Made by a program: the position numbers and the translations under genes
The notes under the pieces: generated by a model
Database searches by the model: none
What the model saw: only the letters and a program-made list of their open reading frames with translations
What the model was told of the DNA's origin: nothing
Shown: piece after piece, positions 31,694-44,131 of the stretch
How the letters are laid out: the number at the start of each line of letters is the position of its first letter
Position numbering within the stretch: position 1 is the first letter of the stretch
Source: an uncultured Spirochaetota bacterium
GTDB taxonomy: Bacteria; Spirochaetota; Spirochaetia; Treponematales; Rectinemataceae
Length of the DNA: 44,131 nucleotides
Assembly: GCA_903821875.1 (NCBI GenBank)
Contig: CAIJMU010000118.1
Coordinates: forward strand, 1-44,131
Direction: 5' to 3'

Positions 31694-34600
31694 TCACTCC
31701 CCGGAGCCTCCGCTAGCAGCAGCCTTGATCAGGATGAACTCCACGCGGCGGTTCTTCCAGCGGTTGACCGCGTCCTTGAAGTCCACGACAGGCCTGCCCG
31801 AACCCATGCCCAGGACCGATAGCCGCTTGGCGTCAACACCGGCGGCCACGAGCATTTTCCGCACGAGCTCTGCGCGGTCGGTGGACAGTGGAAGGAGTTC
31901 GCCCTTTTCCTCGGCTTCCACCTTCGCGGCCGAGTAGCCGTAGATCTTGCCGATGGAGTTGGCATGCCCCTCGATGGCGATGCCATAGCCCCTGAACTTG
32001 TTGAGGATCTCGGCGATGCGCGCGATAACCCGCGAGTTCTTGCTCACCGTAGCGGCGTCGAGTCCGTTGAAGTCTGCTGCGTTGGCCCTGAACACGATGG
32101 AAGGAACCTTGATCTTGAGCTTGTCCGCCTCGCGGATGACGAGCACGTCGACAGCGACCTTGCCATTGAGTTCCGAGCGGTTCCCGTAGACATCGGCGAT
32201 CCCGAAGCGGAGGTTGTAGTCGGTGGCCGATTCGACCGTCTCGCCCTTGCTCGACTTTCCGTCCCAGGTGATGACGCCGGCGGGTACGCCCTTCCCCGAC
32301 CAGGAGGCGAAGAGCCGTTCCTTTGGCTTGGATCCCGGTGTCTCCTCGACAGAGACCTCGTTGATATCGAGCTTCCAGGCCGTAAGTTCGCTCTTGTCCT
32401 TTACCGCGATCCTCATGGTGAGCTCGTCGTCAACGCCGTCATTGTCGGGGCTGAAAAAGTCCGGAGAGAGCCCGAGCTCCACCGCCGGAGGGGTAATGTC
32501 GACGATGATGGTTCCGGTCTTCGACTCGACGCGGTCGCCCTTGCTGTAGTCAATGCGGAAGAGCCCCGTATAGGCTCCCTCGACAACCTGGCCGTCGGAG
32601 TTCTTGCCGTTCCAGGACAGCCGCGAGGGGACGTCCGAATCGGCGCCGGAAAAGGAGACTCGTTCACTGCCGGCGCTGTCCAGGATGGAAAAACGCCACT
32701 CGGAGACGCCGTCCCGGAGGTTGACCAAAAGGGAGAAGGAAACGTCGTCCATGACCCCGTCGTTGTTGGGGGAGAGGCCAGGTGCAGAGGCAGTGACAAA
32801 GACCTGGGCCTGCCGTGCATCCACGGCTATGGAGGGAATGACAACCCGGGTCGCGTTGCCCGCCGAGTCGGTTGAGGAAACTTCGTAACGATAGCTTCCG
32901 TCGGCCACCCTGTTGCCAGCCGAGTCGGTGGCGTCCCAGACCAGGTCCTCGACCTGGCCCTTCCAGGACCAGCTTCGCAGCGCATTGCCCTTGGAGTCGA
33001 GGAGCTGCCCCTCCCAATCATCTCCGGGTACGGCCCTCTGCACGATCTTCGAGGTCCTATGTCGGCTCTCCGGGTTCGGTGAGAAAAGGAGGGGGAAGGC
33101 CGAGGCGCTAAGGGCAGGGGAGACCGTGTCGAGGAGGATGGGGAGGGTCTGGGCTTCGGCAGTATCGTCGTTAGCCCAGCTCACCTCGAGAATGGCCACA
33201 TAGCGTCCTTCTGGAGCCTTCAAACCGTCATCCCGGTCGCCGATCCAGGTAAAGGCAGGAAGGATCGAGGTTGTCCCCGACCAGGTCCTGATCGCCCGTG
33301 TGCGGTCTGCCTGCTGGCCCGATTCAGGCGCCGGGTAGATGGCGAGCTTCCAGCCCTTCACGCGGTTGCTGCCGGGAACGGTGTCGGAAAGGGCCAGGAC
33401 ATCCTTGATGCCGTCGCCATTGGGCGAGAAGGCCCTGAGGTCAGATCCGAGCCGCGCAGTCTTCTTTTCGGTATCGAGGGCTACCGGGAAAACAGGTGAC
33501 TGGTAGGAATTTCCGGCGCGGTCCTGGGACCGGAGGCGGTAGAAATAGCTGCCATCGAGAACCGGTGCGCCATCGTCGTTCGTGCCGTCCCAGACGAGGG
33601 AGGCTTCGGGCCCATCCTTCCAGCTCCAGCTGCGTTGCACGCTGCCGTCGGAGGCCAGGATTTCAGCGGCCCAGCGCTGCTCCTCGCTCCCGCTCTGGGT
33701 GAAGGTGACGTGGCTCTGCGCCTCCTTGCCGGCGGGATTGAAGGCGCTCCGGTCGGCCGTCACCGTTGCCACCGGGGCAGTCACGTCGAGGACAAAGTTG
33801 GGAGAGGTGGCGACCGGGTGGTTGCCGTTTGTGTACATGATGGTCAGGCGGGCCTTGTAGAGGCCCTCCACGAGGGTTCCCGACGCTGACAGTCCTTTCC
33901 AGACATAGGTTTCCGGGATGTTTTCGCGGCTGCCGGAAACCGACAGGGACTCGGCTCCTGAAGCGTCGAGAATGTTCAGGGTCCAGTTGGAGATGCCCTC
34001 CCTGACGCCCTGGTCGTGGTCAAGGGCGAAGGTGATGGTGTCGAAGACTCCGTCGCCGTTGGGCGAAAGTCCTGGAGCCGAGGCAGTGACGGAAACCTGG
34101 GGTTTTCTCGCATCGACGCGGATGGCTGAAACCTGGGCGCGGCCGGCATTGCCTGCCTCGTCGGTCGAGACAATCTCGTAGCGGTAGCTGCCATTGACAA
34201 CCGTATTGCCCGAGTCGTCGCTCCCGTCCCAGACCAGGCTCTCCACCTGGCCCTTCCAGGACCAGGTCCTCACCGGATTGCCCGAGGTACTGAGGAGGCG
34301 GGCTTCCCAATTGTCCCCGGGAACAGCCTTTTGCGAGATCGTGGTCGTCTTCTGGAGGCTGTCTTCGTTCGGTGCGAAGTCCAGGGGGAAGGCGGACACC
34401 GAAATCGAGGGGGCTACCGTGTCGAGAAGGATGGGCAGGGTCTGGGCTTCGACGGCATCGTCGTTGGCCCAACGCACTTCGAGGAGGGCTACATAGCGCC
34501 CGTCCTGGGCCTTGGAACCATCGCTTTTAGTCCCCGTCCAGGAAAAGCCGGGGGGTATCACATTCGTACCAGCCCAGGACTTGAGCGGCTTGGTCGTGTC

Positions 34601-37123
34601 CACATGCTGGCCAGCTTCGGGAGCCGGATACAGGCCCAGCTTCCAGCCCTTCACGCGGTCAAGGGCCTGCACGGTGTCCCCGAGTGCCAGGACATCCTTG
34701 ATGCCGTCGCCGTTGGGCGAGAAGGCCCTGAGATCCGTGACGAGCCGGGCGGTCTTCTTTTCCGTATCGAGGGCCACCGGGATTTCGGGCGACTGGTAGC
34801 GGTTGCCCGCGCGGTCCTTCGAGCGGAGGCGGTAGCTGTAGTCGCCGTCGGGGACAGCGGCTCCGGCGTCGTCGCTGCCGTCCCAGGCGAGAACAGGCGC
34901 GGGTTTCTGGTTCCAGTTCCAGCTCCGGCTCACCCTACCGTTGGCAGCCAGGATTTCCCCGGTCCACAGCTCTTCCTCGCTTCCGCTCTGCGTGAAGTTG
35001 ACGCGGTTCTGGCCCTCGCTCCCCGCAGAGTTGAAGGCGACGCGGTCGGTCCTCACCGAGGCTACAGGAGCAGTCACGTCAAGGACAAAGCTCGGCGAGA
35101 GGGCCACCGGGCCAAAGCCGTTCTGGTAGTTGGCCGCGAGGCGGGCCTGGTAGCTGCCCTCGGGGAGGTTCTTTCCGTCGAGACCCCTGCCGTCGAAGAG
35201 GAAGCGTTCGGGGATGGCTGCGGGATTAGTAGAACCAAGGCTGAAGACCTCGCGGCGGGCCTTGTCGAGGATGGAAATCTTCCACGACACGAGGCCGGTG
35301 CGGACCGGGACGCTCGGCCGGAGTCCGAGGCTGTCCTGTACCCTGTCGCCGTTGGGGCTAAACACGCTGGCGTCGATCATGATGTTGACGGGCGGCTGCT
35401 GGGTGTTCACCACCACGTTCTCGAGCCGTTTCATGAAGGGGTTGGCCGCCCTGTCAGTCGAGGCCAGCGAGAATGAATAGACGCCGTCAGGAACAACCGT
35501 GCCCGCATCGCTCTTGCCGTCCCAGATGAAATCGGAGGGTCCCGCATTCTTGTACAGGGAGCTGCGTACTGCGGTACCGGCCGCGTTCAGGACCTTGAGG
35601 GTCCAGAGGTCCTCGACCGAACCCTGCTGCTTGAGGGTAATTGTGTCCTTGCTGCCGTCGCCGTCAGGGCTGAAGATCATCACTCCGTCAGCTACCGCGA
35701 GCTCAGCCAGGGGCGGCGTGGTGTCCACGGTGACGGGAAAGGGCCCCACCTCGCTCCTGTTGTCGTTGTCGTCGATCGCGGAAATCCGCACTTCGTAGTC
35801 TCCGTCGGGCACCCGTTCGCCACCGTCGCCAAAGCCGTTCCACATGAGCTTTTCCGGCACAGGGAGGCCGGTCTTGACGTAGAGGAGGCGGTTCCAGAGC
35901 CCCGTGAAACCCTCGTTTTCCGGCCTGCTCTCCTTGTTGGCGATAGTCCGGACCGGCTCCGCCTGGCCGCTCGGGGAAATAGCCATCTGGTAGGAAGCGA
36001 TGTAGCGCTGGTCGACAATGTGGATGGGGATGTCCAGGATGTCGAGCTTGCCATCGGCATTGGGGGACAGGTACCAGGGACCCCAGTCGGTCGTCGGGAA
36101 CTGGGCGCTGATGTCGGGACCCTTCTGGTCAACCACGCCCAGGGGCAGGGTGAGGCCCGTCGAGATGCTGTAGACAGAGCCGTAGAGGGGGGTGACTGCC
36201 AGGGCTGGCCTGAGTTCGCTCTTGTCCCAGCCCTGCTGTGCCATAAAGGAATCATCCTTCAGGCCCGAGAGCGGGAAGGTTCCCATGAAGGCGAGGGAGG
36301 GAAGGAGGTTCTTTTTTGCGCCTCCCGCGAGTTCCCGCACCGAGGGGAAGCCCCAGCCCAGCCTGAGGGTCAGCATGTCCCTCCACACGAGGCTCCCGGA
36401 AAGTCCCAGTCCGAGGTCAATGAAGGAGGGCAGGGAGAGGTCCAGCCCCGCACCGATCTTGAACTCGTCGCTCCGGATGAGGAGGGCGCGGGCCCCTCCG
36501 GACAGCGTAAAGGGAGCCTGTACGGCCCAGGTGGAAGCAGCGGTCGAGTAGCCCTTCCCTATGTTCGCCAGGACCGCACCGTAGCGGAAGTCCTTGAGAA
36601 AGCCGAGGTCGCCCAGTTTATGGATGACACCGAGGTCAAGGCAGAGGCCAAAGCCATAGTCCTGGTTCCAGCCAAAGCTCGTATCGAGGGCAGCGCCGAC
36701 CAGGAAGTTCGGGAAGAGATCCTTCGAGATGCCTCCTCGTAGCTGGGCGAGGGTGCCCAGGGGAAGGTCGGTCATCGAGCCGGGCGTGGAGACAAAGTAG
36801 AGGCCGCCGTTCCAGACCCCGTAGGGCTGGGGAAGGTCAAAGCCAAGGTTGATCGCCGTGCCTAGGCCCTGGATACCGAAATCGCTCAACAGGCCGTAGC
36901 CGATATCGAGGACGGGGCGCTGCTGGGCCCCCGAGGCAGCGGGGTTGAATCGGTCGGCCCAGGGTGCGTCGAGGAAGGTAGCCGAGGGACCCGAGCCAGC
37001 CGGGATAGGCGCACCGAGGAGGGGAAGAAGGTAGCTGCCAGCGGGGGGATCGCTCGCGGCGAGTGACGAGCTTGCCAGTACGCCGACTAAGGCTGCGATC
37101 GCGAGGGGCTGTAGTTTCCGCAT
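31694..37123 (-). CDS. Giant outer-membrane protein: UPF0164-like barrel, about 12 FlgD/Ig-like repeats, OmpA C-terminal domain
   Basis: The 1809-residue product has a signal peptide (residues 1-23). Residues about 24-340 resemble the spirochaete UPF0164/FadL-like barrel (FNPAASGAQQ, repeated amphipathic strands, many Gly/aromatic turns). From about 345 to 1620 there are about 12 Ig-like modules, each opening with an SPNGDGxxD-type motif and closing with WDGxDxxGxxVxDGxY and DxAGN, as in FlgD-like Ig domains. A block of four modules is duplicated with an exact 431-residue period. Residues about 1640-1800 are an OmpA-like domain (IEGHANSIGK, STDRAELVRKMLVAAGVDAK, NRWKNRRVEF), which should bind peptidoglycan. 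It lies downstream of exbBD-tonB. Its role may be structural, adhesive or transport. Confidence 0.85.
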   Translation of the reverse strand: MRKLQPLAIAALVGVLASSSLAASDPPAGSYLLPLLGAPIPAGSGPSATFLDAPWADRFNPAASGAQQRPVLDIGYGLLSDFGIQGLGTAINLGFDLPQPYGVWNGGLYFVSTPGSMTDLPLGTLAQLRGGISKDLFPNFLVGAALDTSFGWNQDYGFGLCLDLGVIHKLGDLGFLKDFRYGAVLANIGKGYSTAASTWAVQAPFTLSGGARALLIRSDEFKIGAGLDLSLPSFIDLGLGLSGSLVWRDMLTLRLGWGFPSVRELAGGAKKNLLPSLAFMGTFPLSGLKDDSFMAQQGWDKSELRPALAVTPLYGSVYSISTGLTLPLGVVDQKGPDISAQFPTTDWGPWYLSPNADGKLDILDIPIHIVDQRYIASYQMAISPSGQAEPVRTIANKESRPENEGFTGLWNRLLYVKTGLPVPEKLMWNGFGDGGERVPDGDYEVRISAIDDNDNRSEVGPFPVTVDTTPPLAELAVADGVMIFSPDGDGSKDTITLKQQGSVEDLWTLKVLNAAGTAVRSSLYKNAGPSDFIWDGKSDAGTVVPDGVYSFSLASTDRAANPFMKRLENVVVNTQQPPVNIMIDASVFSPNGDRVQDSLGLRPSVPVRTGLVSWKISILDKARREVFSLGSTNPAAIPERFLFDGRGLDGKNLPEGSYQARLAANYQNGFGPVALSPSFVLDVTAPVASVRTDRVAFNSAGSEGQNRVNFTQSGSEEELWTGEILAANGRVSRSWNWNQKPAPVLAWDGSDDAGAAVPDGDYSYRLRSKDRAGNRYQSPEIPVALDTEKKTARLVTDLRAFSPNGDGIKDVLALGDTVQALDRVKGWKLGLYPAPEAGQHVDTTKPLKSWAGTNVIPPGFSWTGTKSDGSKAQDGRYVALLEVRWANDDAVEAQTLPILLDTVAPSISVSAFPLDFAPNEDSLQKTTTISQKAVPGDNWEARLLSTSGNPVRTWSWKGQVESLVWDGSDDSGNTVVNGSYRYEIVSTDEAGNAGRAQVSAIRVDARKPQVSVTASAPGLSPNGDGVFDTITFALDHDQGVREGISNWTLNILDASGAESLSVSGSRENIPETYVWKGLSASGTLVEGLYKARLTIMYTNGNHPVATSPNFVLDVTAPVATVTADRSAFNPAGKEAQSHVTFTQSGSEEQRWAAEILASDGSVQRSWSWKDGPEASLVWDGTNDDGAPVLDGSYFYRLRSQDRAGNSYQSPVFPVALDTEKKTARLGSDLRAFSPNGDGIKDVLALSDTVPGSNRVKGWKLAIYPAPESGQQADRTRAIRTWSGTTSILPAFTWIGDRDDGLKAPEGRYVAILEVSWANDDTAEAQTLPILLDTVSPALSASAFPLLFSPNPESRHRTSKIVQRAVPGDDWEGQLLDSKGNALRSWSWKGQVEDLVWDATDSAGNRVADGSYRYEVSSTDSAGNATRVVIPSIAVDARQAQVFVTASAPGLSPNNDGVMDDVSFSLLVNLRDGVSEWRFSILDSAGSERVSFSGADSDVPSRLSWNGKNSDGQVVEGAYTGLFRIDYSKGDRVESKTGTIIVDITPPAVELGLSPDFFSPDNDGVDDELTMRIAVKDKSELTAWKLDINEVSVEETPGSKPKERLFASWSGKGVPAGVITWDGKSSKGETVESATDYNLRFGIADVYGNRSELNGKVAVDVLVIREADKLKIKVPSIVFRANAADFNGLDAATVSKNSRVIARIAEILNKFRGYGIAIEGHANSIGKIYGYSAAKVEAEEKGELLPLSTDRAELVRKMLVAAGVDAKRLSVLGMGSGRPVVDFKDAVNRWKNRRVEFILIKAAASGGSGE
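32490..35367 (-). repeat. Tandem 1293-nt higher-order repeat within the giant outer-membrane gene
   Basis: Equivalent motif positions recur at exactly 1293 nt: the SPNGD codons at 35345, 34052 and 32759, and the GACATCCTTG element at 34691 and 33398. Two full four-Ig blocks plus a third copy of the first Ig module are present, with no net insertion or deletion. Limits are approximate. Confidence 0.88.
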
Positions 37124-37191
37124 TCCGAAGTCCTCAGGGGAGTGATGTCGTGTAACTCATGACCGGGCTGTCCAGCTACGTACACGCTGGG

Positions 37192-37215
37192 AATATACCA
37201 CAATTATGCTGTCAA
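37192..37215 (-). promoter_or_regulatory. Possible extended -10 promoter of the giant outer-membrane gene
   Basis: On the minus strand TGGTATATT (37192-37200) is a TGn-extended -10 lying about 70 nt before the ATG. TTGACA is present at 37210-37215 but only 12-13 nt away, too close for a standard -35. The region is locally AT-rich. Confidence 0.45.
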
Positions 37216-37224
37216 AAGTCGTTT

Positions 37225-38265
37225 CTAATCGAAGCGATAGGTGAAGCTCCCGGTTACCGCCTCGCGCGTCGCGTTGAAATAGGAGCCCTTCCTGAAGGCA
37301 TAATCCACGGCCTCGTCGATGTCCCCGTAGCCTGAGGAGGAAACCAGTTCGAGCTTGTCCAGGCGGGGCTTGCCCGAACCGTCGGCGGCAGCCACGGTAA
37401 AGCGTAGGGTCACCGCCTTCGGGCGGGGGTTGCGGGACTTGAAGTCGGCGGTGGAAGCGTCGTAGCCCGCGTCTTCGAGGAGGGTCCAGAGCTCTTCGCG
37501 GTTGGCCAGGGGCACATTTCCGGAGATCCGCCAGAGCCCCTCGCCGCGGGCATAGAACTTCATGAAGACCCTGCGCCGCTCGGCAGTCGAAAAGCCCGGA
37601 AGGTCGCGGAGCTTGTCCGGCAGGGATTCATCGACCACGAGGGGAAGGGGAAGGAAGAGGTAGACCGGCACGTAGAGGTTACGGCCAGCCTTCCCCGCCT
37701 CGGCGCCGAAGACCGTATCTGCGGAGTTGCCCTTTTCCGACGTGCGGTAGGTCTGGTTGGGGGTGGCTGCCGGACTGCCACTGGTGACAGCAGTGGAGCT
37801 GAAGGTCTGGGAGGAGCTGGTCTCGGTCGTGGGACGGACAGTGGTGGCCGCTGTCGGCGGCGGCGTGGCTTCACGGCTCGGCACGCTGACTTTGGGCGTT
37901 GCCCGCGGCTTTTCCGGCGGGCTTAGCGGAGGCGGAGGGCTGGGCAGGGCTGAAGCCTTGGGGGCAGGTGGTTCCGCTACGCCCGGGGGAGGCGTGACAG
38001 CCTGGATTTCAGGCCCGGGCGCCGGGGATGCGGCCTCGACCGTGGCCCCGTCCTCCAGGGTCACGTACACCGTGCTCGGCAGGCGGTCGAACACAGTGGG
38101 CCTGAGCAGGCCGAACACAAAGAGGGCAGCCACGAGGAGGCCGAAAAAGGCGAGAGACACAATCCAGCTTTCAAGGCCGCGCTTCCTGTCGGCAGCGCGG
38201 AGGAAGATCTCCCGCGCGGAAAGACCCGGCGAGAGGGGGGACGGCGCCGTGGGCCGGAGCGTCAC
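37225..38265 (-). CDS. tonB: TonB-like energy transducer
   Basis: Transmits proton-motive force from ExbB/ExbD to the outer membrane. The 346-residue product has one membrane span (WIVSLAFFGLLVAALFVFGLL, residues about 35-55), a long Pro/Ser/Thr-rich periplasmic linker (about 85-170) and a C-terminal TonB-like domain (PKAVTLRFTVAAADG, SSGYGDIDEAVDYAFRKGSY). The start is GTG, overlapping the exbD stop (GTGA). The C-terminal domain is longer and more divergent than in E. coli TonB. No TonB-dependent receptor is in the window. Confidence 0.82.
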   Translation of the reverse strand: MTLRPTAPSPLSPGLSAREIFLRAADRKRGLESWIVSLAFFGLLVAALFVFGLLRPTVFDRLPSTVYVTLEDGATVEAASPAPGPEIQAVTPPPGVAEPPAPKASALPSPPPPLSPPEKPRATPKVSVPSREATPPPTAATTVRPTTETSSSQTFSSTAVTSGSPAATPNQTYRTSEKGNSADTVFGAEAGKAGRNLYVPVYLFLPLPLVVDESLPDKLRDLPGFSTAERRRVFMKFYARGEGLWRISGNVPLANREELWTLLEDAGYDASTADFKSRNPRPKAVTLRFTVAAADGSGKPRLDKLELVSSSGYGDIDEAVDYAFRKGSYFNATREAVTGSFTYRFD

Positions 38266-38732
38266 GGCGTGCCGGCTCCTGGTTTGACGCTGGCCGGGTT
38301 GGTGGCCGTGCCGCCCTGGGCCGTGGAGGTGGCGAGCCCGACGGAGTCGATGCCATTCCGGCGCAGGGCATCCATGGCCGATACGACAAGCTGGTATTCA
38401 GCAACAGAGGGAGCTTCAAGGATGGCCCTGATTGGCGCGTCGGCAGTCCCGGCCCTGTGGATGATGGCCGCTTGGGCAACAGCCGCCTCGAGTCCCAGAA
38501 GGTCGACCCTCTCGCCATCGACATAGATCTCGTCCGAAGAGACCGCCACGATGCGGATCTCGCCCAGGGGCACCGGCTGCGCCGTGGAGGAACCCGGGAG
38601 GGAGAGGGAAATGCCGGGGGCAGTCCTGAAGGTCGTCGTGATCATGAAAAAGATGGTGATCATCATGATGACGTCGATCAAGGGAGTCATGTCGATGGAA
38701 GCGCGAGGCACCAGGCGCCTTTGAAACCTCAT
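38262..38732 (-). CDS. exbD: ExbD/TolR proton-channel subunit
   Basis: The 156-residue product has a short cytoplasmic start, one membrane helix with the key proton-carrying Asp20 in IDMTPLIDVIMMITIFFMI, and a periplasmic domain with the conserved swapped-strand pattern (EIYVDGERVDLLGLEAAVAQ, then IEAP-like ILEAPSVAEYQLVVSAMDAL). It ends in a Gly/Thr-rich tail of about 25 residues. The ATG overlaps the exbB stop. Confidence 0.93.
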   Translation of the reverse strand: MRFQRRLVPRASIDMTPLIDVIMMITIFFMITTTFRTAPGISLSLPGSSTAQPVPLGEIRIVAVSSDEIYVDGERVDLLGLEAAVAQAAIIHRAGTADAPIRAILEAPSVAEYQLVVSAMDALRRNGIDSVGLATSTAQGGTATNPASVKPGAGTP

Positions 38733-39394
38733 GATCCTGCCTTGATGTCGGCAAAGAAGGAGGGCGAGGGGGCTTTCGGCGGGCGGGCCTTCCCCGAGTT
38801 GATCATGAGGATGAGGGCGTTCACCTGGTTTTCGAGCTTGATGATCATGTTGTTGGCCTTGCCCACGAGGTAGTTGTAAAAGGATACCGAGGGGACTGCG
38901 ACGACGATTCCACCCACCGTCGTAATGAGGGCCTCTGCCACTCCGTTGGCCAGCACCGAGGGATCGCTTACTGCCCCGAACTGGCCCAGGACGCCGAAGG
39001 CCTTCATCACGCCCGTCACCGTGCCTAGGAGGCCGAGGAGGGGAGAAATGCTCGCGATCGTCCCGATGACCTGGATGTTCTTCTCCAGGCGGGGGACTTC
39101 CTGGGCTGCGGCGTCCTTGAGGACCTCTTTCTGGACGCTTTCGGGATAGTCGCGGTGCTCGATGCCCACCTTCATCAGACCCGACAGAGGCGAGAGGTTG
39201 GTGTCACAGATGGCGAGGGCCTCATCGTAGTGACCTTTTTCGAGGGAGACCTTGATCCTGCGATAGAGGACATCCTCGTCCACCGAGATCCGGCGGAAAT
39301 ACAGGAGACGCTCCACGACGACGGCAACAACCACGACCGCCAAGGCCATGATCACCCAGAGAACGATGCCGCCCTTTTCCACAAACCCGAGCAT
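38729..39394 (-). CDS. exbB: ExbB/MotA/TolQ proton-channel subunit
   Basis: The 221-residue product has three predicted membrane spans: near residues 8-30 (GGIVLWVIMALAVVVVAVVV), and the pair around LLGTVTGVMKAF and ANGVAEALITTVGGIVVAVP, the latter two being the MotA/ExbB proton-channel motif. GGGAGG precedes the ATG by four bases. It heads a translationally coupled exbB-exbD-tonB unit. Confidence 0.94.
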   Translation of the reverse strand: MLGFVEKGGIVLWVIMALAVVVVAVVVERLLYFRRISVDEDVLYRRIKVSLEKGHYDEALAICDTNLSPLSGLMKVGIEHRDYPESVQKEVLKDAAAQEVPRLEKNIQVIGTIASISPLLGLLGTVTGVMKAFGVLGQFGAVSDPSVLANGVAEALITTVGGIVVAVPSVSFYNYLVGKANNMIIKLENQVNALILMINSGKARPPKAPSPSFFADIKAGS

Positions 39395-39421
39395 GATGCC
39401 TCCCGCGGGATTGGCTCCCCG

Positions 39422-39463
39422 CCTTGCCTGACGATAGCGGGTCTGGGCAAATCAGGCAAGGCA
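39422..39463. terminator. Perfect 11-bp inverted repeat between caspase and exbB genes
   Basis: GCCTTGCCTGA (39422-39432) and its exact complement (39453-39463) are separated by 20 nt, without a U-tract on either side. It may separate the caspase unit from exbB or be a regulator site. Confidence 0.5.
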
Positions 39464-39555
39464 GCGAGCAGTCGCGGGGGCCGGCATCGATTTCACCCAG
39501 GCTGCTTGATTCATGGCCCCAGTGTTCCCCGGGCCGTGAAACCTCCGCATCAGCC

Positions 39556-41817
39556 TCAGAGCTGAATACCCAGAAAGGGCCTTGAAAAGGCAAACACCGT
39601 TGCCCCATCGAAGAGGATAGGTAGCATTCCAGGATTCCCGCTCCCCACCGAAAGGCCATCGAAATAGAAATGCTGGTCAAAGCCCGCAAGCAAACCTGGC
39701 CCTCCCTCCACGGGGCGATACGAGAGAAAGAGCCTCGTCTGAGGAATCAGGTCACGCCGCAGGTCATTCTGGCTAGCGCGGAAATCGAGCTTGAAGCCGA
39801 CGCGGTTGTAGGCGATTCCCGCATCCATGTGAAGGGCAAGCCCAGGCAGAAGAATGGGAAAGCGGAATCCCAGTCCCGCCCCAAGGGATATCGCCGGAGG
39901 AGCGGTCGCGGCATCTTCGACGCCGGTCCGGGACTCAAAGAGGAAATACTTGTAGAACCATTCACTTCCAAAACGGATCACCATGGTGGGCACAAGGTTC
40001 CGATCCCAGGCATTGCCGGTCCCCGAAAAAGCCAGGGCGAAATCAACGTGATTCTGCCCGTTGAACTGGATGTCGATGATTCCGATCGGCAAACCGGTCA
40101 ACTTCCGCGAAATGTTCACCAGGCCGATCTGGAGACCGGTTCCTTCATCCGCATAATTGACAAAACCCAGCTGGATGCCACGGAAATTCCGCGCGAGGTT
40201 GAGGCCATAGGCAACTTGCAATCCCGTGAACTCACCCCAGGCCTGGTTGAGCAGGCCTGCCTGGAGGAAATTGCCATCCTGGGCGAGGTAGTTGGAAAGA
40301 CCGATCTGCCCCAGCCGCAAGGTCCCCTCGATGAAATTAAAGGCCCCCAGCTGTACTCCGGCGAAGTCTCCTCGCGTGACGTTGAGCAGCCACGATGCCT
40401 GGCCACCGATCGCGTCTCCGCCTGTCCAGTTAAGCCCCGCGCTCAGCTGGAGGCCGATCAGGTCTCCCTTGGCCAGCGAGCCGCCCAGCGCCGATTGCAG
40501 CCCGACGAAATCACCTCCGGTCCAGTCGAGCGCGCCGGCGAATTGCGCCCCGGTGAAGTCCTGCGCCGCCGTAGCGACGAACATCGCTCCCTGCGCGCCT
40601 TGCGAAGAAGTATCGATCGTCCCATAAACAAGGGAAAGCATGAGGCCAGAAAGCTGCTTGCTCTGTCCTCCAAAGACATCGAGAACCAGGGAATCGCGGC
40701 CGTCGCGATCGGAAATGGAAATGCCGGTACCAAGCCAGTCCAGCCCGGGGGATGAGCTCCCTCGATTTCGTGTGGCGCTTTTAGAGACCGCCTTCAGGGT
40801 TTCCGGCGAGACCCTGTACAGCCCCGCTTCGTCGGCGATGATCATGGATTCCAGCAGCGAGCCGCCTTCATCGACCGTTACCCGGTAGTAGCCTTCCTCC
40901 ACGCGGATCGACAGCTCACGCTCTTCTTCCTTGGCGAGTTCGACCACGAGCTTGTTTGAAATGTCCCTGATCGCCACGCGTCCCCGCAATCCCTTGGGAA
41001 ATAGTATGATCGGCCCGCCCTGCCTGATGTCCGTCAGCACAAGGTTGCCTTTTCCGTTCAGCTTGATGTCGAAGGCCGGATGCTGCGTGCCGCCGCTCGC
41101 GCGCTCGGTCTCGGCCAGGGTGCGATCATAGGCGTAGGCGTAGGCTTCGTTGAGCGTTACCGTGCCGTCGGCGTTGGAATCCGCCGCACCCCGCAGGGCC
41201 TCGATCAGCGAATGCGTGAAGAAGGACGACTCGATCCTGTCGGATTCCTGGGAGACTTCGTCAGCCGTGCTGGAGGTGATGAAGGCGTGTCCCTCGACCT
41301 CGGACGAAAGGTCCTGGAGGAAGGGCACGCCGATCTGCCCACCCTTTTGCCGTGTGAAGGCTCCCGACGAACAGGAATCAAGTATGACGATTTCCACCTC
41401 CGCCCCGACGGCCGTGATACGTGACTTCAGGTCGGCGTAGTCCATGCGCTCTCCGTCGAGAAGGAGCCCCCGCTCGTCGGAGTGTCCCGAGAAATAGAAG
41501 AGGAATTGCGCCTGTCGCGACGCTCCTGCGCCTTTGCGCAGCTTCGACTGAAGGAAGGCCAGCCCCCTCGCCAGGCTATCCTTGTCGGGATTGATCAGCA
41601 ACAGGCTGTTCTCGTCCTTGATCCCTCCCATCCTGACCAGGAGGTCCTGGAAGCGTTTTGCGTCGCTCGCGGCGTACTTCAGTGTACCCGTACCCTTCCC
41701 GCCCGAGTTTGAGCCCGCCACCAGGGCGAAACGCTCGATGGCGTCGAGGGCGAAGGCCGGAAAAGCCTGCGAGGCGATGCTTGCGAACAAGGTAATAATT
41801 ATGAATAAGCGTCTCAT
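39556..41817 (-). CDS. Secreted caspase-like (C14) peptidase with EF-hand loop and C-terminal surface-repeat barrel
   Basis: The 753-residue product has a signal peptide (cleavage near AFA, residues 21-23). The caspase-like domain (about 28-240) has the catalytic dyad H112 in FYFSGHSDERG and C149 in IVILDSCSSGAF. A canonical 12-residue calcium loop DSNADGTVTLNE lies at 213-224. A short linker domain (about 255-345) contains beta-rich PEGA-like strands. Residues about 370-580 carry G-x-Q-x-G-x-x-N-type surface repeats like those called LA_2272 repeats, predicting amphipathic strands, and the end (about 600-753) has barrel-like strands closing in FLGIQL. The ATG overlaps the probable anti-sigma stop. 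Likely an envelope-exposed, signal-responsive protease. Proteolysis itself is not shown. Confidence 0.85.
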   Translation of the reverse strand: MRRLFIIITLFASIASQAFPAFALDAIERFALVAGSNSGGKGTGTLKYAASDAKRFQDLLVRMGGIKDENSLLLINPDKDSLARGLAFLQSKLRKGAGASRQAQFLFYFSGHSDERGLLLDGERMDYADLKSRITAVGAEVEIVILDSCSSGAFTRQKGGQIGVPFLQDLSSEVEGHAFITSSTADEVSQESDRIESSFFTHSLIEALRGAADSNADGTVTLNEAYAYAYDRTLAETERASGGTQHPAFDIKLNGKGNLVLTDIRQGGPIILFPKGLRGRVAIRDISNKLVVELAKEEERELSIRVEEGYYRVTVDEGGSLLESMIIADEAGLYRVSPETLKAVSKSATRNRGSSSPGLDWLGTGISISDRDGRDSLVLDVFGGQSKQLSGLMLSLVYGTIDTSSQGAQGAMFVATAAQDFTGAQFAGALDWTGGDFVGLQSALGGSLAKGDLIGLQLSAGLNWTGGDAIGGQASWLLNVTRGDFAGVQLGAFNFIEGTLRLGQIGLSNYLAQDGNFLQAGLLNQAWGEFTGLQVAYGLNLARNFRGIQLGFVNYADEGTGLQIGLVNISRKLTGLPIGIIDIQFNGQNHVDFALAFSGTGNAWDRNLVPTMVIRFGSEWFYKYFLFESRTGVEDAATAPPAISLGAGLGFRFPILLPGLALHMDAGIAYNRVGFKLDFRASQNDLRRDLIPQTRLFLSYRPVEGGPGLLAGFDQHFYFDGLSVGSGNPGMLPILFDGATVFAFSRPFLGIQL

Positions 41818-42512
41818 CGTACGGGCTCCTTGTCTTTCGCTTTCTTGATAATGTGGAATTCCGCCGCCGAGAATCCGCGCTTGACCGCATCGGCGCCTTC
41901 TCCTCGGGAGAGCGCCTTCGCCATGTCCTCGGCGGCCGAGACCGCGAAGGGCCGTTCGCTGGCGAAGGCGACGAGCAATTCGAAATCCGGCGCATCGTCC
42001 AGTCGGTAGGCGTAAGGAAGAAGGGCCGGCTTCCCCGGCTCAAGCTGGCCGGAACGGTCGGAGTCGAGGGGGAAATGCCTGGTCACGGTGCCACGCCCAT
42101 CCACCGAAAGGATCACGACTTCGCGCTTCGTCGCTGTGACGCAGGCCAGCTGGATCTCCTCTCCCTGACCCAATTCCACTCCATCGGCGAGAATCTCGGA
42201 CCCAGAGGGAGTGCGGTGGTAGACGAGGAGGCCGAGATCGCCCCGCTTGATGCGCAGCCCATCGTCAAAAGACGGCATCGCGAGCATGACCACAGCTGCC
42301 AGCGCGGCAGATAGTGCCAGCACGGCGCCTGCCCTTGGAATCCAGACCCCTCCCCATCGACCTGCCACAGGGCGAGTCGGCAGGCGTGGATGCGCGCTGA
42401 TGAAAACCCGATCTGCGGACCGCAGGGCTTCAACGGCCACGACAGCGTCGGCTTCCAGGCCGCTGTGCAGCTCCCCAGCAGCGATTCTCTCAAGTTCGAG
42501 GACGCTCCTCAT
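41814..42512 (-). CDS. Probable single-pass anti-sigma factor with DUF4384-like periplasmic domain
   Basis: The 232-residue product has an N-terminal cytoplasmic part (residues 1-58: LELERIAAGELHSGLEADAV, a helical stretch such as anti-sigma factors use to hold sigma) without a zinc motif. One transmembrane helix follows (about 61-80, AGAVLALSAALAAVVMLAMP). The periplasmic domain resembles DUF4384: GLLVYHRTPSG..., GEEIQLACVTATKREVVILS, GRGTVTRHFPLDS, LLPYAYRLDD. The ATG at 42512 has GGAGG seven bases upstream and overlaps the sigma stop (ATGA); it overlaps the caspase start likewise. Position next to an ECF-like gene supports the anti-sigma role, but no known anti-sigma family is recognised with certainty. 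Confidence 0.72.
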   Translation of the reverse strand: MRSVLELERIAAGELHSGLEADAVVAVEALRSADRVFISAHPRLPTRPVAGRWGGVWIPRAGAVLALSAALAAVVMLAMPSFDDGLRIKRGDLGLLVYHRTPSGSEILADGVELGQGEEIQLACVTATKREVVILSVDGRGTVTRHFPLDSDRSGQLEPGKPALLPYAYRLDDAPDFELLVAFASERPFAVSAAEDMAKALSRGEGADAVKRGFSAAEFHIIKKAKDKEPVR

Positions 42513-42991
42513 GGGCGTGCCTCCTTCCATCGGCTGGCGTAGCTAGCCAGTTTCGCCAGGCGTTTGCGCGCTCCAGAGACGGAAAGCCCGGAAGCGAGCG
42601 CTACTTCATCCCAATTCATGCGATCGACCCAGCGGTACCAGGCCAGCTCGCGGGTGAGCGGCTCCACACGCGCGAAAAGACTTTCCAGGAATATCCGCCT
42701 TTGCCAGCCATCCTCCGGCGCGCCAGCGGGATCGGCGCCGTCAAGATCCTCACCCGGAGAGACGCTCCTGTGCTCACGCTTCAAGCGGTTCAGCGAATAG
42801 TGGGTCGCCATGCCGAAGAGATAGGCCGTCATTGAAGCGACAGCGTCGAAATTGACGCGATCCTCCGCCAATTTAAGAAAGACCTCCTGAACGCCATCCC
42901 ATGCCTCCTCGTCATTCCCGAGTATGGCCCTGCAGCGGCGATGCACCATGGCTCCATGGCGAACATAGAGCTCCTCGATCCGGCGCGTCAT
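42509..42991 (-). CDS. ECF-like sigma-70 factor
   Basis: Redirects RNA polymerase to a small regulon. The 160-residue product has region 2 (LYVRHGAMVHRRCRAILGND, EEAWDGVQEVFLKL, then TAYLFGMATHYSLNRLKRE) and region 4 (LAWYRWVDRMNWDEVALASG with SVSGARKRLAKL as recognition helix), joined by a short linker. The length fits a minimal ECF sigma factor. GAGGAGG lies eight bases before the ATG. It is the first of three genes that overlap one another by 4 nt, so it probably controls its own operon under restraint by the following membrane protein. Confidence 0.9.
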   Translation of the reverse strand: MTRRIEELYVRHGAMVHRRCRAILGNDEEAWDGVQEVFLKLAEDRVNFDAVASMTAYLFGMATHYSLNRLKREHRSVSPGEDLDGADPAGAPEDGWQRRIFLESLFARVEPLTRELAWYRWVDRMNWDEVALASGLSVSGARKRLAKLASYASRWKEARP

Positions 42992-43118
42992 CGCAAGGGT
43001 CCTCCTCGATTCACATGCACGCTAATGACAAGGCAGAAGGCAAATTCTGTCACCGGAAAAAGAAAGAAGTGAAGGAAGGACGGGGAAGCTACAGGGAATT
43101 CGGCGCCACAGCAGGCAA
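42992..43118. other. Upstream region of the sigma/anti-sigma/caspase operon
   Basis: 127 bases between the cyclase stop and the sigma start. It must hold the operon promoter, but I could not pick a convincing -35/-10 pair; a pyrimidine-rich tract (plus-strand purines about 43056-43090) is the only distinct feature. Confidence 0.35.
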
Positions 43119-44131
43119 CTACGACACGAAATACATCTCCATCAAGCCCTTGCCCTTCACTTCGGTCGGGGGCCGCCGCTCGAGGGGCACGCGCCCGGCC
43201 AGGAGCTCCCTGGTGGTGCGGGAAATGTTGATCCTGCCGACCTCCGACAGGCTTTCCATCCTGCTCGCAGTGTTCACTGTATCACCGAAGACGTCGTAGA
43301 TGTACTTCCTGGTACCGACGATTCCCGCCACGACGGGACCCGAGTGCATGCCCACCCGGATGCGCCACTGGGTTCCTCCGAGCTCGTTCCTCTGCGCAAT
43401 GAAGGCCACCATCCTGCGCGCGGCCTCTACCATGGCAAAGGCGTGGTCCGGATGCTCGTCGGGCAGGCCACAGGCCGCGAGGTAGGCGTCGCCGATGGTC
43501 TTGATACGCTCGCAGCCTAAGGCGAGCATGATGGAGTCGAAATTTGAATAGATGTCGTTCAACTCTTCGATGATCTCCTTGGGGCTGAGGACAGCCGAGG
43601 TTTCGGTGAAACTCTCGAAGTCGGAAAAGAGGATGGTAGCCTGGCTATAGAGCTTCGGTTCGCTGTAGCCCTGGGTCAGGAGGTCCTGGACAACCTTGCG
43701 AGGCAGCATGGCGTGGAGGAGCGCTTCGGAGCGGCGACGCTCGCGGAGGAGGGCCAGGTGGGTCCCTACCCTCGCCAGGACCTCCTCGGGCTGGAAGGGC
43801 TTGGTGATGTAGTCGACGCCCCCGGCAGCAAAGGCCTGGACCTTGCTGGTGGTCTCCATGAGGGCGCTGATAAAGAGCACCGGCACGTCCTTGATCGCCT
43901 CGCGCTGCTTGAGCAGCCGGCAGAGTTCAAAGCCGTCCATCTCCGGCATGGTGATGTCGAGGATGAAGAGGTCGGGCGGCTGACGCTCTGCTGCGCGGAG
44001 GGCCATGTCGCCCCGGGTAAAGAGGACAACCCGGTGCCCGGCCCCCTGCAGGACCTCCTGAAGGAGTCGGAGGTTGTCCGGAAGGTCGTCAACCACCATG
44101 ATTGTTTCATTCTGATTCTTGTTCAGATCGG
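43119..44131 (-). CDS. Response regulator fused to class III adenylate cyclase, N-terminus outside window
   Basis: The frame is open to the last base: before the ATG at 44099 come DLNKNQNETI and no stop, so the true start lies beyond the window. The receiver domain begins IMVVDDLPDNLRLL and has its phospho-acceptor Asp in DLFILDITMPEMDG. A short helix leads to a class III cyclase domain with metal aspartates in LFSDFESFTET and TIGDAYLA, adenine-selecting Lys in RIKTIGDAY and Asp in YDVFGDTVNTASR, and the transition-state Asn/Arg there. This supports cAMP rather than cGMP. Because the frame continues upstream, it may be the end of a larger hybrid sensor. Confidence 0.9.
   Translation of the reverse strand, partial: DLNKNQNETIMVVDDLPDNLRLLQEVLQGAGHRVVLFTRGDMALRAAERQPPDLFILDITMPEMDGFELCRLLKQREAIKDVPVLFISALMETTSKVQAFAAGGVDYITKPFQPEEVLARVGTHLALLRERRRSEALLHAMLPRKVVQDLLTQGYSEPKLYSQATILFSDFESFTETSAVLSPKEIIEELNDIYSNFDSIMLALGCERIKTIGDAYLAACGLPDEHPDHAFAMVEAARRMVAFIAQRNELGGTQWRIRVGMHSGPVVAGIVGTRKYIYDVFGDTVNTASRMESLSEVGRINISRTTRELLAGRVPLERRPPTEVKGKGLMEMYFVS

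Follow-up and report, generated by a model that had tools for sequence, protein, structure and literature searches.

A sigma factor, a membrane anti-sigma factor and an exported caspase-like protease encoded as one conserved unit in Spirochaetota and Myxococcota: a candidate envelope-sensing switch

What caspases do in bacteria is a matter of long debate, mainly in terms of cell death. In 2012, Asplund-Samuelsson et al. reported operons that combine a sigma-70 factor gene with a metacaspase gene in Myxococcus, Anaeromyxobacter, Haliangium, Sorangium, Ralstonia and Fibrobacter (PMC3501461). In type III-E CRISPR (clustered regularly interspaced short palindromic repeats) systems, Csx29 cleaves Csx30, an inhibitor of an extracytoplasmic function (ECF)-like sigma factor (PMC10028731). 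Here we analyse a three-gene unit, encoding a sigma factor, a membrane protein and a secreted caspase-like protein, located in a 44,131-nt stretch (referred to as the window; all coordinates are given relative to it) of contig CAIJMU010000118.1 from an uncultured Spirochaetota bacterium of the family Rectinemataceae (assembly GCA_903821875.1).

The three genes and all features described for them lie on the minus strand. The gene for the ECF sigma factor (42509..42991; 160 amino acids [aa]) is followed by those for the membrane anti-sigma factor (41814..42512; 232 aa) and the secreted caspase protein (39556..41817; 753 aa). Residues of the middle protein are counted from M7, with the start at 42512 (the open reading frame [ORF] lister had placed it at 42530); given this start, both gene junctions are 4-nt ATGA overlaps. 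A first-pass annotation, made from the sequence alone, had located the genes, both overlaps and the catalytic dyad His112/Cys149 correctly, as confirmed by re-checking the sequence. It had also considered the combination uncommon and suggested that co-occurrence of the homologues be examined by gene order. This comparison revealed the identical order in well over a hundred loci, which indicates that the unit is not a chance arrangement. In six related genomes that belong to the same taxonomic order, the caspase orthologue likewise follows the two partner genes, with one of the loci truncated where its contig ends. When the genomes of 84,980 species were scanned, 346 caspase relatives were found, the best 80 of which come from Spirochaetota, Myxococcota and other delta-type bacteria, Fibrobacteres, Fermentibacteria and FCPU426. 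An anti-sigma gene is located directly upstream of 197 of the 204 caspase ORFs at the fetched loci, with a sigma gene present as well in 155; far from being uncommon, the unit recurs over several phyla. Among 393 Spirochaetota genomes the caspase is encoded in 54, all of which also contain the middle gene (Fisher test, p = 4e-61, a value not corrected for phylogeny). In five further genomes only the middle gene was detected: three of these matches lie where a contig ends, and among them L300 is a different protein; of the other two, one is a copy in decay and one belongs to an unrelated lipoprotein. Members were identified in 155 of 195 Myxococcota genomes at a looser threshold, often several per genome. 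We are highly confident that the three genes constitute an autoregulated module composed of a sigma switch, its membrane inhibitor and a secreted caspase-like protease.

The sigma protein matches Sigma70_r2 (40.9 bits; cut-off 24) and TIGR02937 (47.3 bits; cut-off 42.9), and the helix-turn-helix of region 4 was recognised by alignment, so that the protein consists of regions 2 and 4 only, as is characteristic of ECF (group 4) sigma factors. The middle protein possesses a short cytosolic N-terminal helical domain (consensus D-x-x-L-E-R-x-x-L-G-E-L), one transmembrane segment (residues ∼59–80) and a periplasmic beta domain starting at residue 93. The match of the latter to DUF4384 (22.8 bits) is below the Pfam cut-off of 27, for which reason 'DUF4384-like', the label used in the first-pass annotation, is the apt wording; in a fold search with this domain, the matches were to Ig-like structures and of middling quality at best (Z up to 8.7), and no function was drawn from them. 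A profile constructed from the relatives matches the window protein with an E-value of 1e-40. The H-x3-C-x2-C zinc anti-sigma motif, present at the same position in paralogous units, is absent from the window protein; the motif is optional in class I anti-sigma factors, about half of the known members having it (PMC7406223). The class I layout, i.e., cytosolic helices, a transmembrane segment, an extracytoplasmic domain and a gene next to that of the ECF factor, is found here with the domain shortened. Judging from these sequence features, the middle gene is that of the anti-sigma factor of the neighbouring sigma factor, to which its product presumably binds.

The caspase protein matches Peptidase_C14 (36 bits; cut-off 21.4) and the LA_2272 surface repeats (44.4 bits; cut-off 25). 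It consists of a Sec signal peptide (judged by eye), a metacaspase-like domain (residues 27–266), a beta-sandwich linker, a beta-solenoid (residues 365–589) and long C-terminal strands (residues 588–752). The catalytic residues His112 (codon at 41482..41484) and Cys149 (41371..41373), as well as Asp52 (41662..41664), Asp147 (41377..41379) and Ser110, are invariant in all 204 caspase homologues. The last three are the predicted equivalents, assigned by motif, of Asp95, Asp211 and Ser156, which form the S1 pocket of TbMCA2, a member of the metacaspases, enzymes that cleave after Arg or Lys (PMC4357240). The S1 residues are thus as expected for cleavage after Lys/Arg. A sequence search of the PDB with the caspase gave no match. 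In a fold search with the structural model, the best match of the caspase part was to Arabidopsis metacaspase 4 (Z 21.3, root-mean-square deviation [rmsd] 2.7, 209 residues aligned), tied with other caspases. The solenoid (40051..40725; NF047436), into which the LA_2272 repeats are modelled, resembles the beta-helical structure 3p4g (Z 20.9, rmsd 2.5, 218 residues). The last 165 residues are modelled as about eight long strands, which may form a membrane barrel; through the solenoid and this strand domain the caspase is probably anchored in the outer membrane, facing the periplasm.

A link between the protease and the anti-sigma factor is suggested by a sequence motif, R-x-K-G, that the two proteins share. 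In the alignment of anti-sigma factors, the most conserved residue outside the periplasmic domain is the lysine of this motif, located between the transmembrane segment and the domain (K in 105 and G in 104 of 107 sequences); K89 of the window protein belongs to one of the 10 invariant columns. The alignment column is a cleaner measure than a separate pattern count (123 of 130), which includes wrong picks (e.g., L103, L101, L128, L097 and L096) and misses some true ones. The candidate cleavage motif of the window protein, R87-I-K89-R-G (42240..42254; R-x-K-G in the relatives), is situated in the juxtamembrane linker, in a stretch modelled with low confidence (mean 52), the first strand beginning at residue 93. 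In the caspase, the motif is R156-Q-K158-G159 (41341..41352), found in the interdomain linker nine residues after Cys149, at the edge of a loop (residues 158–171) with a predicted local distance difference test (pLDDT) score below 50. Here R, K and G are conserved in 191, 202 and 204 of the 204 homologues, respectively. Since the activating interdomain cut in caspase-3 lies 12 residues after the catalytic Cys, the position of the motif corresponds to that of a self-activation site. The presence of the same motif in the activation loop of the caspase and beside the membrane in the inhibitor indicates that the former probably cuts the latter.

Two bacteria provide a natural control. At loci L103 and L105 an extra copy of the caspase, intact and with its own R-x-K-G, has a partner that retains the DUF4384 domain and the sigma promoter and has lost the sigma gene, the anti-sigma domain and the juxtamembrane lysine. 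Across ten genomes, every sigma-linked DUF4384 protein found keeps K-G or K-S, whereas the two unlinked ones do not. In this small sample, loss of the lysine is the behaviour anticipated for a cleavage site that would be needed only for release of the sigma factor.

The conserved motif 5' of the sigma genes is GTRACA-N15-GGTGTT, the 15-nt spacing being found in 57 of 58 exact cases. Among 102 non-redundant upstream regions, 41 contain the strict form, where 0.01 would be expected, and 53 a looser version. The putative promoter in the window, GTGACA-N15-CTTGTC (43027..43053), follows the family consensus ∼36 nt 5' of the sigma start codon, with a second element weaker than the GGTGTT of the family. 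In Myxococcaceae the unit is split: anti-sigma and caspase genes without a sigma gene reside at one locus, and the sigma gene is found elsewhere together with a different anti-sigma gene. Of the non-redundant sigma-less loci, 13 out of 14 have kept the promoter motif. In 11 genomes the strict pattern was encountered ∼58 times, compared to 4 times for the reversed control. Genes behind it code mostly for exported or envelope proteins: ExbB/TolQ-like channels, TonB-like, MauG-like and barrel-like proteins, DUF2807-like lipoproteins (names assigned by eye, not through family search) and stand-alone copies of the C-terminal LA_2272 domain of the caspase. The ExbB/TolQ-like and TonB-like genes bear the promoter in myxobacteria, the ExbB-like ones in Myxococcaceae. 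Occurrence of the promoter before the units, the sigma-less split loci and other envelope genes points to an autoregulated regulon; the operon is most likely under the control of its own sigma factor, and the nature of the candidate regulon fits envelope upkeep. A regulon in the window's own genome, based on the window's promoter, was dropped because the loose pattern is at chance level there.

On balance, we consider it probable, to a modest degree, that the unit is an envelope-sensing switch in which the caspase cuts its own anti-sigma factor and the liberated sigma factor raises expression of its own operon; for the cleavage step taken by itself our confidence is only slightly above even. 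The one-pass anti-sigma factor would retain the ECF sigma factor at the inner membrane, with the exported caspase probably attached to the outer membrane and facing the periplasm. A disturbance of the envelope would activate the caspase, probably via self-cleavage at R-x-K|G in the interdomain linker, whereupon the caspase, as a site-1 protease, would cut the anti-sigma factor at the juxtamembrane R-x-K|G (R-I-K|R in the window). A site-2 protease and cytosolic proteases would then free the sigma factor. The own genome encodes one site-2 protease (Peptidase_M50, E 1.4e-47); such a protease is also present in all 14 control genomes, which makes this weak evidence. The sigma factor would transcribe its operon from GTRACA-N15-GGTGTT, resulting in positive feedback through the caspase and negative feedback through the anti-sigma factor, and in myxobacteria it would also transcribe a small envelope regulon. 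A more specific proposal, to which we give just under even weight, is that the caspase, anchored in the outer membrane by its solenoid, is a dedicated site-1 protease using one R-x-K|G specificity for both self-activation and cleavage of the inhibitor, and that this constitutes a general envelope-stress circuit of Myxococcota, Spirochaetota and others.

The first-pass annotation had proposed that a sigma/anti-sigma pair senses the envelope and drives up the amount of a caspase located there, possibly for envelope damage control, regulated cell death or defence. The pair and its output agree with the promoter found before the operon and the split loci and with the envelope regulon, whereas death or defence drew little support. 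A lethal caspase set off by envelope damage, e.g., by phage, would be in line with the action of caspase-family proteases in defence elsewhere and with an earlier proposal that M. xanthus metacaspases are possible lysis enzymes in development (PMC3501461). However, the defence library of PADLOC gave a weak match to a caspase model (E 0.004) and none for the sigma factor, searches of viral contigs and plasmids found no relatives, the spread in Myxococcota and Spirochaetota is broad and chromosomal, and the regulon resembles envelope upkeep; we regard this explanation as very improbable. It is unlikely, if worth serious consideration, that another protease releases the sigma factor and that the caspase is one output among others, processing or degrading envelope proteins. 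The sigma promoter in front of the operon and of the split anti-sigma/caspase loci is compatible with such a role, and the stand-alone LA_2272 proteins and exported lipoproteins of the regulon could be the substrates, yet this leaves unexplained the tight pairing of the caspase and anti-sigma genes even when the sigma gene is elsewhere, the presence of R-x-K-G in both proteins and its loss along with the anti-sigma domain. A downstream-only role for the caspase, as in the first-pass annotation, is probably incomplete: the shared motif, which that annotation had missed together with the promoter and the C-terminal beta-solenoid/strand domain, suggests an additional upstream role in which the caspase targets its own anti-sigma factor.

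Several observations weigh against cleavage of the anti-sigma factor and the switch built on it. K-G is found 31–33 residues from a conserved DUF4384 residue in 63 of 79 cases. With this spacing almost fixed, the motif could belong to the DUF4384-like domain as a structural or binding element; the notion that K-G is a linear motif independent of the domain is weakened for the same reason. Paralogous sigma/anti-sigma pairs (L155, L159-L161, L168, L393, L397 and L399) retain K-G or K-S without an adjacent caspase, their genomes holding caspases elsewhere. Both points would suit a structural or ligand-binding K-G and a non-proteolytic interaction in which, for example, the periplasmic domain of the anti-sigma factor inhibits or tethers the caspase. 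We find this rather improbable, given that the domain survives without K-G in L103, L105 and L300, that the motif sits in a low-confidence linker and that all caspases have a full active site. Furthermore, the window anti-sigma factor reads K-R rather than K-G; co-variation of the P3 residue between the caspase and anti-sigma motifs is not significant (Fisher p 0.44); basic-Gly linkers (SRGL-type) are seen in further C14 proteins from the genome of the window, seven having Arg-Gly in that place; the loose promoter pattern is not enriched in the own genome (4 versus 6 in the control); and the predicted anchoring in the outer membrane derives solely from the strand pattern in a model.

The genome of the window (L001-L008) contains about ten further Peptidase_C14 matches, seven of them with a DACRDNP/DSCRDNP-type active site and the Arg-Gly linker. 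Directly downstream of the caspase gene are exbB-exbD-tonB-like genes and a gene for a 1809-aa OmpA/FlgD-Ig protein (31694-39394, minus strand); ExbB is not kept beside the other units examined. Between the caspase gene and exbB, at ∼39419-39464, there is a near-perfect inverted repeat, GCCTTGCCTGA...TCAGGCAAGGC, which could be a terminator or an operator. Directly upstream of the unit, a response regulator fused to an adenylate/guanylate cyclase domain is encoded (43119-44099, minus strand). Scans of the region with Rfam and for sigma-70 promoters yielded nothing useful.

Variants of the unit were also encountered. L300 (198-1571) encodes a 457-aa multi-transmembrane spirochaete protein with a DUF4384-like domain and with no sigma gene nearby, anti-sigma domain or K-G. 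At L297 (genome G380, which belongs to the window's own order) the unit is in decay, with the sigma gene gone and the caspase broken; the anti-sigma fragment still reads V-K-G. In L106 (1-1447) the sigma gene and the N-terminus of the anti-sigma factor have the opposite orientation to the remainder of the unit, so that the anti-sigma gene is broken in two, either by an assembly artefact or by a recent inversion. M. xanthus AM003 has one unit with the sigma and anti-sigma genes and a secreted protein that has lost its caspase domain, and another with the anti-sigma and caspase genes and no sigma gene (L159, L062), a complementary decay of duplicates. More divergent families of sigma/zinc-anti-sigma/caspase units are present in myxobacteria (L162-L174 and L391-L406; L393, L397 and L399 without an adjacent caspase).

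The sequence evidence points to a definite substrate, bond and output for a large subfamily of caspases with intact active sites. If this is true, the role of the subfamily would be signalling across the envelope, not death, and the RNA-guided Csx29/Csx30/sigma device would have a widespread CRISPR-free counterpart. Spirochaetota, including relatives of Treponema, and myxobacteria would gain a candidate envelope response of the sigma-E kind, for which a promoter is predicted.

The operons of Asplund-Samuelsson et al. likewise combine a metacaspase gene with a sigma factor gene and are very probably units of the same kind; the available portion of that text names no anti-sigma gene, promoter, regulon, cleavage motif, mechanism or Spirochaetota members (PMC3501461). 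The caspase described here resembles metacaspases/orthocaspases (MEROPS C14B) in its His/Cys dyad, acidic S1 residues and fold, and differs from them in its signal peptide, beta-solenoid, C-terminal strand domain and sigma/anti-sigma operon. As in the Csx29-Csx30-CASP-sigma system, the genes for an ECF-like sigma factor and its inhibitor have that of a caspase-fold protease as a neighbour; in that system the protease cuts the inhibitor (PMC10028731). However, Csx29 is a protease of the TPR-CHAT type that Cas7-11 and target RNA activate (PMC10028731), whereas here the protease would be an exported C14-type enzyme, which in Pfam matches Peptidase_C14 without TPR or CHAT, and the inhibitor a membrane protein. 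With the RseA/DegS/RseP (sigma-E) and RsiW pathways the unit shares a membrane anti-sigma factor with a periplasmic domain and, as proposed here, a juxtamembrane site-1 cut followed by the action of a site-2 protease. The site-1 enzyme of those pathways is not known to be a caspase; unlike there, the proposed site-1 enzyme shares an operon with the anti-sigma factor and has a domain of outer-membrane type. The closest logic for the unit would be that of Csx29/Csx30/CASP-sigma and of RseA/DegS, with an exported caspase taking the place of the site-1 protease in an ECF pathway.

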